Of a stretch of 64,000 bases of DNA, positions 953-5,188 are shown piece after piece. The stretch comes from Aquimarina litoralis. GTDB taxonomy: Bacteria > Bacteroidota > Bacteroidia > Flavobacteriales > Flavobacteriaceae. Made by a program: the position numbers and the translations under genes. Under the pieces are notes generated by a model. It was not told the origin of the DNA. It was given only the letters and a program-made list of their open reading frames with translations, and ran no database searches. Within the stretch, counting starts at the first letter, position 1. Every line of letters begins with the position of its first letter. The stretch is taken from positions 1 to 64,000 of the forward strand of contig NZ_WEKL01000010.1 in NCBI RefSeq assembly GCF_019295435.1, given 5' to 3'.

Positions 953-1072
953 GCTCCGCTAGCCCAAATGGGAGAGGCATCCGGTTTAAGCCCGGCTCAG
1001 TCTTGGTTCGAAATGAACACATTCACGATTTCGTAAAACAATAGGAATTGATGAGTAATCCAAGGTGGAGTA
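953..1072 (+). tRNA. tRNA-Leu (TAA) interrupted by 46 bases in the T-loop
   Basis: Apart from 2 substitutions the body is identical to the intact copy at 1403-1476. The T-loop reads ttcgaa, then 46 extra bases (about 1013-1058), then t and T-stem ccaag. Acceptor gctccgc/gtggagt, D-arm, anticodon (TAA) and T-stem cttgg/ccaag are otherwise preserved. The insert starts atgaacac and ends gagtaa. Confidence 0.75.
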
Positions 1073-3321: not shown

Positions 3322-3448
3322 GACAGTATCAATCAAGTCTTGTTGGGTGTTTCTGTATAGCACTATTGTATGGAGAGTTGCAGTTTTGTATGACCTCTTT
3401 ATATACAACTTGGTTTGAAGGTTAGGCTATTAACCAAATAATAGTCAC

Positions 3449-3540
3449 ACTCTATAGGACATGGGTTCGATTCCCATCGGGACCACTAAAAACAGATACA
3501 AAATGGTCCCGTAGCTCAGTGGCTAGAGCGATAGATTTTT
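3449..3540 (+). tRNA. candidate permuted tRNA-Lys (TTT): 3' half then 5' half
   Basis: A 3' half (3449-3485: loop end ac, anticodon strand tctat, variable aggac, T-arm atggg-ttcgatt-cccat, acceptor cgggacc, discriminator A) precedes a 5' half (3505-3540: acceptor ggtcccg, ta, D-arm gctc-agtggcta-gagc, g, anticodon strand ataga, ttttt). The spacer is 19 nt. Joined as 5' half plus 3' half they give exactly 73 nt, with a perfect 7-bp acceptor, a perfect 5-bp anticodon stem and loop tttttac (TTT). No ggtcccg partner lies upstream. The alternative is remnants of two tandem tRNA-Lys copies. Confidence 0.55.
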
Positions 3541-3617
3541 TGTTCATGTGGGTTCGAGTCCCACTATCTTTTTAGAGATATGGCGGAATTGGTAAACGCA
3601 CTAGATTAGGGATCTGG
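3541..3617 (+). tRNA. candidate permuted tRNA, Leu-like 5' half (weaker case)
   Basis: A 3' half (T-arm gtggg-ttcgagt-cccac at 3548-3564, acceptor tatcttt) is followed after 2 nt by a 5' half (acceptor agagata at 3574-3580, Leu-type D-arm gcggaattggtaaacgc, anticodon stem ctaga/tctgg). The acceptor strands pair over 7 of 7 positions including one wobble. The loop ttaggga would give anticodon AGG, which conflicts with the Leu-type D-arm. The spacer is too short to hold a discriminator base, so this pair is less convincing than its neighbours. Confidence 0.35.
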
Positions 3618-3648
3618 CGAACAAGGCACTGAAAATGCCTTTTACATT

Positions 3649-3730
3649 GCATGGGTTCGAATCCCATCGAGACCACCAAATTAGGTTTCGTAGCTCAGTT
3701 AGGTAGAGCACTACACTCATAATGTAGGAT
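3649..3730 (+). tRNA. candidate permuted tRNA-Met (CAT): 3' half then 5' half
   Basis: A 3' half (T-arm atggg-ttcgaat-cccat, acceptor cgagacc, discriminator A3675) is followed after 8 nt by a 5' half (acceptor ggtttcg at 3684-3690, D-arm gctc-agttaggta-gagc, anticodon stem ctaca/tgtag with loop ctcataa, CAT). The acceptor strands pair 7 of 7 with one wobble. I see no cgagacc-like strand downstream for the 5' half. Joined in reverse order the pieces give a canonical elongator-Met-like cloverleaf with the join in the variable loop. Confidence 0.5.
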
Positions 3731-3733
3731 AAA

Positions 3734-3839
3734 AGCTAATCATCTTATAAAACTGATTGACAAAAACTGTGAACTCAAATCTGTTTTTATAGTGCTCTTG
3801 CTATAAAAACAATCTTGAAAGTACTTTGAAATATTAGCT
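3734..3839 (+). other. inverted repeats before the slipin gene
   Basis: AGCTAAT (3734-3740) is complementary to ATTAGCT (3833-3839). It encloses a perfect 11-bp hairpin TGTTTTTATAG/CTATAAAAACA (3782-3792 with 3801-3811). The structure directly follows the last tRNA 5' half, so it could be the tail of that transcript or a leader of the slipin mRNA. From 3840 to 4000 I see only A/T-rich sequence. Confidence 0.4.
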
Positions 3840-4000: not shown

Positions 4001-5188
4001 ATGAAATCGATAATACCTCCGTTACAGGATTATCATCCAATTAATGTTAAATCTGTCTGTTCATTAACAGACATAAAAACTAAGAAAATGAAACGAGTAC
4101 GAATCAATGCTGGTACAGTGGGATTGGTTTTCAGGAAAGGTGACTACAATCGTGTAATTACACAAGGAACTCATTGGTTAAGATTTGATGAACGTATAAC
4201 AAAATACGATCTTTCTAAACCTTTCACGACTCCTGTAGCACTAGAGATCTTATTGAAAGATACAACATTGGAGGATATGCTACATGTGATTGAGGTAAAA
4301 GACAATGAAATTGTTTTGGTATATGAAAATGGAAATCTCAAAAGTGTTTTTCCTGCAGGTAGATATACGCTATGGAATAGTTTATACACTTATAAATTTA
4401 TAAGAATAGATCTTAGTAAAATTTATATCACAGAAAAAATTGAAAAGTCATTGTTCAGTAACTACTCCATCAGCAAGTACATTAGAACTTTTGAGGTAGC
4501 AGCCTATGAAAAAGCTGTACTTATCGTGGATGATGTATATAGTAAAACACTGAATAGTGGTACATATCGTTTCTGGAAAAATGATACAACCATTAAAATT
4601 GCCAAAGTAGATCTACGTCAATTACAACTGGAAGTAGCTGGTCAAGAGCTATTAACCAAGGATAAAGCTGCTATTCGAATCAATTTCGATGTACAGTATA
4701 AGGTAGTAGATATAGAAAAAGCTTTGCTTGATAACAAAGACTATTCAAGACAATTATATATCGCGATGCAATTAGCACTAAGAGCTTTCGTAGGAAATTA
4801 CACGTTAGATGAATTACTGGAACGTAAAGATAGTATGGCAAATGCAATACTAGAATCTACAAAAAACCAAGTAATCAAACTAGGTGTAAAAGTATTGAAT
4901 TGTGGTATCAGAGATATCATTCTGACTGGTGAAATGAAAGAAATCATGAACCAAGTTCTGATTGCACAAAAGAAAGCTCAGGCTAATACTATTACCAGAC
5001 GTGAAGAAACTGCATCAACCAGAAGTTTGCTAAATACTGCAAAGCTTATGGAGGATAATGCTATGCTCTATAAGCTAAAAGAAATGGAGTATGTAGAGAA
5101 AATTGCTGATAAAATTGGTGAAATAACAGTTTCTGGTAATGATGGTGTAGTAAAACAATTGAAGGATATATTCTCTACGAATAAATAA
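4001..5188 (+). CDS. SPFH/Band-7 domain protein (slipin)
   Basis: A 395-residue slipin-type SPFH protein. The core VRINAGTVGLVFRKGDYNRV near residue 33 and the SPFH stretch up to about residue 320 are followed by an Ala/Lys/Arg/Glu-rich helical segment (QKKAQANTITRREET) and a second helix, suited to oligomer rings. No clear membrane helix is present. In other bacteria such proteins accompany the RNA ligase RtcB and tRNA-like RNAs in proposed RNA-repair systems. No ligase is inside this window, but the array continues beyond the left edge. The ATG at 4001 follows aaaaa; an internal ATG at 4088 (MKRVRINAG) would match the usual slipin start, so the first 29 residues are uncertain. Confidence 0.8.
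   Translation: MKSIIPPLQDYHPINVKSVCSLTDIKTKKMKRVRINAGTVGLVFRKGDYNRVITQGTHWLRFDERITKYDLSKPFTTPVALEILLKDTTLEDMLHVIEVKDNEIVLVYENGNLKSVFPAGRYTLWNSLYTYKFIRIDLSKIYITEKIEKSLFSNYSISKYIRTFEVAAYEKAVLIVDDVYSKTLNSGTYRFWKNDTTIKIAKVDLRQLQLEVAGQELLTKDKAAIRINFDVQYKVVDIEKALLDNKDYSRQLYIAMQLALRAFVGNYTLDELLERKDSMANAILESTKNQVIKLGVKVLNCGIRDIILTGEMKEIMNQVLIAQKKAQANTITRREETASTRSLLNTAKLMEDNAMLYKLKEMEYVEKIADKIGEITVSGNDGVVKQLKDIFSTNK

Follow-up and report, generated by a model that had tools for sequence, protein, structure and literature searches.

Structure of the interrupted tRNA-Leu gene

The question raised by this locus is whether 46 extra nucleotides in the T-loop of a tRNA-Leu(UAA) gene are an intron of a working tRNA or a piece of DNA that moved into the gene. 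The window, i.e., the whole 64,000-nucleotide stretch that was analysed, begins at base 1 of its contig in an Aquimarina genome of 6.3 Mb. Bases 1 to 2600 form a dense tRNA array that is redundant in tRNA genes, and further tRNA-like pieces extend up to 3755. A syntenic array is present in approximately 10 congeners, and a Band-7 (SPFH) gene, located at 4001-5188 beyond the 3' end of the window array, adjoins the array in 18 of the 24 loci tested, including one in another genus. The array tRNA-Leu genes (874-948, 953-1073, and 1403-1477) are without the long variable arm that the canonical chromosomal tRNA-Leu has. Comparison of the array with phages gave matches of tRNA length only, and a phage origin was rejected on this ground.

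The interrupted gene occupies 953-1073 on the + strand, on which the other tRNA genes of the window described below also lie. Its 5' part (953-1011) ends with CTTGG TTCGA, which reaches A58 of the T-loop, and its 3' part (1058-1073, ATCCAAGGTGGAGTAC) starts from N59. Between A58 and N59 lies a 46-nt element of type A (1012-1057, AATGAACACATTCACGATTTCGTAAAACAATAGGAATTGATGAGTA), and the remainder of the gene is intact. The terminal hairpin of the element, P2, is formed by 1012-1023 (here AATG AACA CATT) and is supported by covariation. A second, uninterrupted tRNA-Leu(UAA) copy, with two substitutions (GGG/GGC and GGC/GGT), lies at 1403-1477 and is found by ARAGORN, whereas the interrupted copy is missed; when 1012-1057 is deleted in silico, ARAGORN calls a normal tRNA-Leu(taa) at 953-1073. 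The initial annotation, which described the gene as the intact copy with two substitutions and a 46-nt T-loop insert, is confirmed, but its hint of a permuted tRNA is not supported, as the two halves lie in normal order, 5' before 3'. Array tRNAs carrying T-loop inserts are overlooked by tRNA finders. The insertion point in tRNA-Leu itself is ambiguous by 1-2 nt because AA is present on both flanks of the insert; in relatives whose T-loops read differently (e.g., tRNA-Arg, TCCGA[..]GTCC), the insert follows A58.

Three further interrupted tRNAs, absent from the initial annotation, are located in the same array. The tRNA-Pro(UGG) gene is interrupted at the same T-loop point, with its 5' part at 464-520, a 93-nt insert of the same family at 521-613 (type B with an extra hairpin-bearing segment), and its 3' part at 614-629. 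The tRNA-Ser(UGA) gene (313-456) bears an insert of approximately 55 nt at 350-404 in the anticodon loop after CTTGA, which has the same insertion geometry but only a weak sequence relation to the element family; a related interruption is present in G009, the closest relative. The T-loop of tRNA-Arg(ACG) (1080-1163) contains a short unrelated palindrome, CCCCGAAGTTTCGGGA, at 1135-1150. In G026, the tRNA-Leu(taa) gene (L024 6771-6896) carries a different insertion in the D-arm region, and array tRNAs therefore suffer unrelated insertions too.

The element family

In G009, the same tRNA-Leu in the same array has no insert. On the other hand, homologous inserts interrupt tRNA-Leu at the same point in G029, G023, G086, and G014 (a truncated copy), and other tRNAs carry homologous inserts as well. 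The insert is not due to chance, given the empty gene in G009 and the recurrence in other genomes. Congeneric orthologues are likewise empty for several other interrupted tRNA genes.

The family has the consensus AATGCnnnGCATTCACGA-N~20-TGARYTA with a terminal hairpin and a length of about 46-54 nt, the exceptions being the tRNA-Pro insert of the window (93 nt) and the truncated G014 copy (36 nt). T-loop inserts start with AATGCnnnGCATTC and end with TGARYTA. In most copies, P2 is AATGC NNN GCATT with a hypervariable three-base loop. Its pairing is maintained by covariation in the wider element set, in which three pairs are changed on both sides; the tRNA-only set gave no additional covariation signal, and an inner hairpin of type B, P4, was dropped because covariation gives it no support. 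The element has precise boundaries, and several dispersed copies share their ends. No clear inverted repeat was found between the two ends, repeats at the junctions do not exceed 1-2 nt (A/AA), and neither a parent transposon nor an autonomous copy of the element was found. Rfam contains no non-tRNA family matching the window insert or those of the relatives, and no account of this element was found in the open-access literature.

Model R2 detected the family in 90 of 397 genomes of the bacterial family at E ≤ 0.01, and model R3 in 75 of 397 at E ≤ 1e-4, with ten or more copies in the genomes where they are most numerous. Since R3 includes a few flanking bases, it favours the T-loop, as do pattern searches containing GTTYGA, and both were used for the range only and not for enrichment. 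Further T-loop insertions were found in Winogradskyella, Psychroserpens, Bizionia, Maribacter, Cellulophaga, and Chryseobacterium. Many pattern matches in Desulfovibrio and Rhodobacteraceae are due to chance, as the full element is missing; the only exact match in viral contigs (L439), which is rich in GC and does not extend to the element's 3' end, also looks like chance. Many copies are intergenic, with the flanks GGATGCCGC and ATCCCTAACGC. In five genera (L249, L252, L258, L264, and L269), the element is found where orfA meets orfB in transposase genes of the IS3 type, and some of these copies leave the orfB frame open.

Target site

More than 10 tRNA species carry the element at T-loop position 58/59. 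Scans combining in silico excision with ARAGORN found inserts in Leu(taa), Leu(tag), Pro, Gln, Phe, and Arg; Ser, Cys, Val, Ile, and Arg(tct) came from a covariance model, and His was recognised by eye. Every T-loop insert of this kind is in the sense orientation and is placed at 58/59, and 27 of them yield an ARAGORN tRNA upon excision. Free of any tRNA flank, the pattern AATGCNNNGCATTCRYGA from the 5' hairpin of the element gave 19 exact matches in 66 congeneric genomes (its reversed control gave 1), of which 16 lie in tRNA arrays, which take up a few kb in a genome of 5-6 Mb. Fifteen of these 16 are at T-loop 58/59, as assigned by eye and by the excision/ARAGORN scans, and the 3 matches outside the arrays lie upstream of an RNase H gene.

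Anticodon-loop sites are a minority, and several are antisense to the tRNA. An antisense element is present in the anticodon loop of tRNA-Arg(tct) in G029, G327, and G439, in that of tRNA-Glu in G029, and in those of Trp and Arg in other genera; in the antisense cases, the loop reads TTAGA^AA or ATAGA^AA on the bottom strand. Sense copies in the anticodon loops of Ser (CTTGA^AA), Cys (TTGCA^AA), and Tyr come from a subfamily with a different, still self-complementary P2, and Ser(tga) of G449 is interrupted in both loops. One rule covers nearly all sites: the element enters a 7-nt loop, on either DNA strand, between its fifth and sixth positions, at (C/G)A^A. The T-arm equivalent is TTCGA^A (A58/N59), and the orientation of the element is set by the strand bearing GA^A. 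The proposal in the initial annotation that the insertion was a targeted event is strongly supported, as members of one element family occupy an identical T-loop position in many genera and many kinds of tRNA.

A probable mobile element inserted at the DNA level

We consider the insert to represent a non-autonomous mobile DNA element whose copies enter 7-nt hairpin loops of tRNA genes by a DNA-level process, a reading drawn from sequence comparison to which we assign a probability of about 0.74. It accounts for a family with precise bounds, a shared target point, an orientation that follows the GA^A strand, empty orthologues, and redundant arrays. In the proposed mechanism, a trans-acting enzyme would recognise both the terminal hairpin of the element and the loop of the target hairpin, perhaps in single-stranded DNA at the replication fork, and would join the element to the loop with no obvious target duplication. 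The interrupted tRNA would be non-functional, and its loss would be tolerated owing to canonical copies elsewhere. A broader proposition, on which we would not bet at even odds, is that elements of approximately 50 nt are mobilised throughout the family by an enzyme that recognises DNA hairpins and cuts the 7-base loop between bases 5 and 6 on either strand, so that tRNA genes folded as DNA may serve as landing pads.

No transposase that mobilises the element was found. Y1_Tnp (PF01797) genes are present in 12 of the 14 genomes tested, but the element was absent from the examined flanks of the Y1/RAYT genes. RAYT was accordingly rejected as the mobiliser. Also weighing against the main reading are the intact cloverleafs of most insert-bearing tRNAs (only the G014 copy is clearly decayed), which could point to function being kept, and the division into types A and B and into T-loop and anticodon-loop subfamilies, which might stem from functional selection. 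Recombination through the homology that T-loops share could spread the inserts too.

Along the Band-7 gene tree, the inserted state is patchy, which calls for multiple gains, multiple losses, or segment exchange between arrays. The array segment of G029 is nearer to the window than its own flanks are. The Gln insert is kept in a clade of four species, within which divergence is too low to gauge purifying selection on the insert-bearing tRNAs.

Selection for function and splicing as alternatives

An unlikely alternative reading is that insert-bearing tRNAs of the array serve as non-coding RNAs or decoys (e.g., for anticodon nucleases, or in the manner of Y RNA/Ro) and that selection keeps the element as a functional RNA module. 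The conserved ends and P2 hairpin, the Band-7 gene beside the array, weak YrlA (Y RNA) matches at the array 3' end, and the retention of the Gln insert in four species are in its favour. However, presence is patchy even among close relatives, many tRNAs and both orientations are affected, and free intergenic copies occur. At 3431-3755 of the window, matches to YrlA (bacterial Y RNA) and tRNA that fall below threshold lie just ahead of the Band-7 gene, and this arrangement of a YrlA-like/tRNA-like array end with a Band-7 gene is seen again in relatives.

Less probable still is an intron removed by bacterial splicing, or by a nuclease-plus-RtcB route, to give a functional tRNA. Archaeal tRNA introns occur in both the T-loop and the anticodon loop, and the precise boundaries, the conserved end motifs (TGARYTA and AATGC..GCATTC), and the mostly intact cloverleafs would suit such a reading. 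The loop rule, on the other hand, holds on either DNA strand and therefore indicates insertion at the DNA level; an intron would be expected neither antisense within tRNA loops (Arg, Glu, and Trp) nor in intergenic DNA and IS genes. The tRNA splicing endonuclease (PF01974) was found in none of the 66 congeners, whereas four archaeal controls were positive. The full interrupted Leu transcript is predicted to fold with loss of the T-stem. Finally, the genome of the window also has intact, canonical genes for Leu(taa) and Pro(tgg), and the interrupted array copies of the closed genome G020 are accompanied by canonical Pro(tgg), Gln(ttg), Phe(gaa), and Ser(gct); the interrupted genes therefore have no need to work. 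The "intron-like" reading of the initial annotation is thus very probably wrong, and most likely the element disables its host tRNA gene rather than being spliced out. The self-cleaving fold that the annotation had proposed looking for fared no better: a hammerhead-like ribozyme (GAAA/TGATGAG) was rejected because its core motifs are lost in relatives and Rfam gives no match.

Recombination as an alternative

It is very doubtful that the inserts are remnants of site-specific recombination by a tyrosine integrase at tRNA T-loops. A T-loop is known as the attB crossover site of Ms6 (PMC1762012), and Cys and Asp tRNAs of these arrays have their 3' ends repeated from position 59 after a payload of 48-75 nt. 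However, no tRNA 3' end is duplicated in the inserts themselves, which have only 1-2 nt in common with the target, are of near-fixed length, and also occur as antisense copies in anticodon loops. That one old insertion reached the other tRNA genes through gene conversion or through exchange between arrays is scarcely credible: array segments such as that of G029 look exchanged and T-loops have GTTCGAATC in common, but different tRNAs share only approximately 9 nt of homology around the site, insert types differ, and antisense and intergenic copies need insertion anyway.

Relation to known systems

On the preferred reading, the element is a variant of the known mobile palindromic repeats of very small size, and its target is unusually sharp and structure-like. 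Very small repeats are common in bacteria, but a mechanism of movement is known for few of them. In the present case, one base position of a defined 7-base loop serves as the landing site in many tRNA species, with empty orthologues, and the questions of which enzyme mobilises such repeats and whether it recognises DNA hairpins are therefore directly testable.

The palindromic elements of Rickettsia (RPE) and other MITE-like repeats of bacteria are similarly small, non-autonomous, hairpin-forming, and dispersed in and between genes, and RPE, of approximately 150 bp, is known for inserting in frame into many protein genes (PMC10969869). The presence of copies inside transposase genes adds to the likeness, but the present element, at 47-54 nt, is directed to a single base position within the hairpin loops of tRNAs. 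Small dispersed repeats of cyanobacteria were reportedly treated by Elhai in 2008. Dispersed repeats of approximately 20 bp in cyanobacteria might be mobile (PMC2884548). They are likewise very small and thought to move without a known enzyme, but differ in sequence and phylum, and are set apart here by description only. To our knowledge, they have no point specificity for the T-loop.

In the REP/RAYT system of Y1 HUH transposases, recognition of single-stranded hairpins offers a natural route to hairpin-loop targeting, and Bacteroidetes subclass 2.6 has atypical REPs (PMC6006769). REP repeats carry GTAG/CGTC (PMC3733652), whereas neither tag was found in the aligned elements, and the RAYT genes examined here lack the element in their flanks. 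Archaeal/eukaryotic tRNA introns and bacterial group I tRNA introns also interrupt the gene at a fixed loop position; the element differs in the absence of a splicing endonuclease from the congeners, in being far too short for group I, and in its antisense copies.

Two further repeat arrangements were observed. In G393 (L177 15300-18600), a tandem intergenic repeat of approximately 600 bp has units with and without the element; an integron attC was considered from this spacing and rejected, as the series is a tandem repeat with no cassettes. The Cys and Asp tRNAs with payloads, present in several Aquimarina arrays (L022 6432-6600, L025 4888-5050, L029 7232-7370, and L129 6374), are attL/attR-like and stand in tandem in G060.
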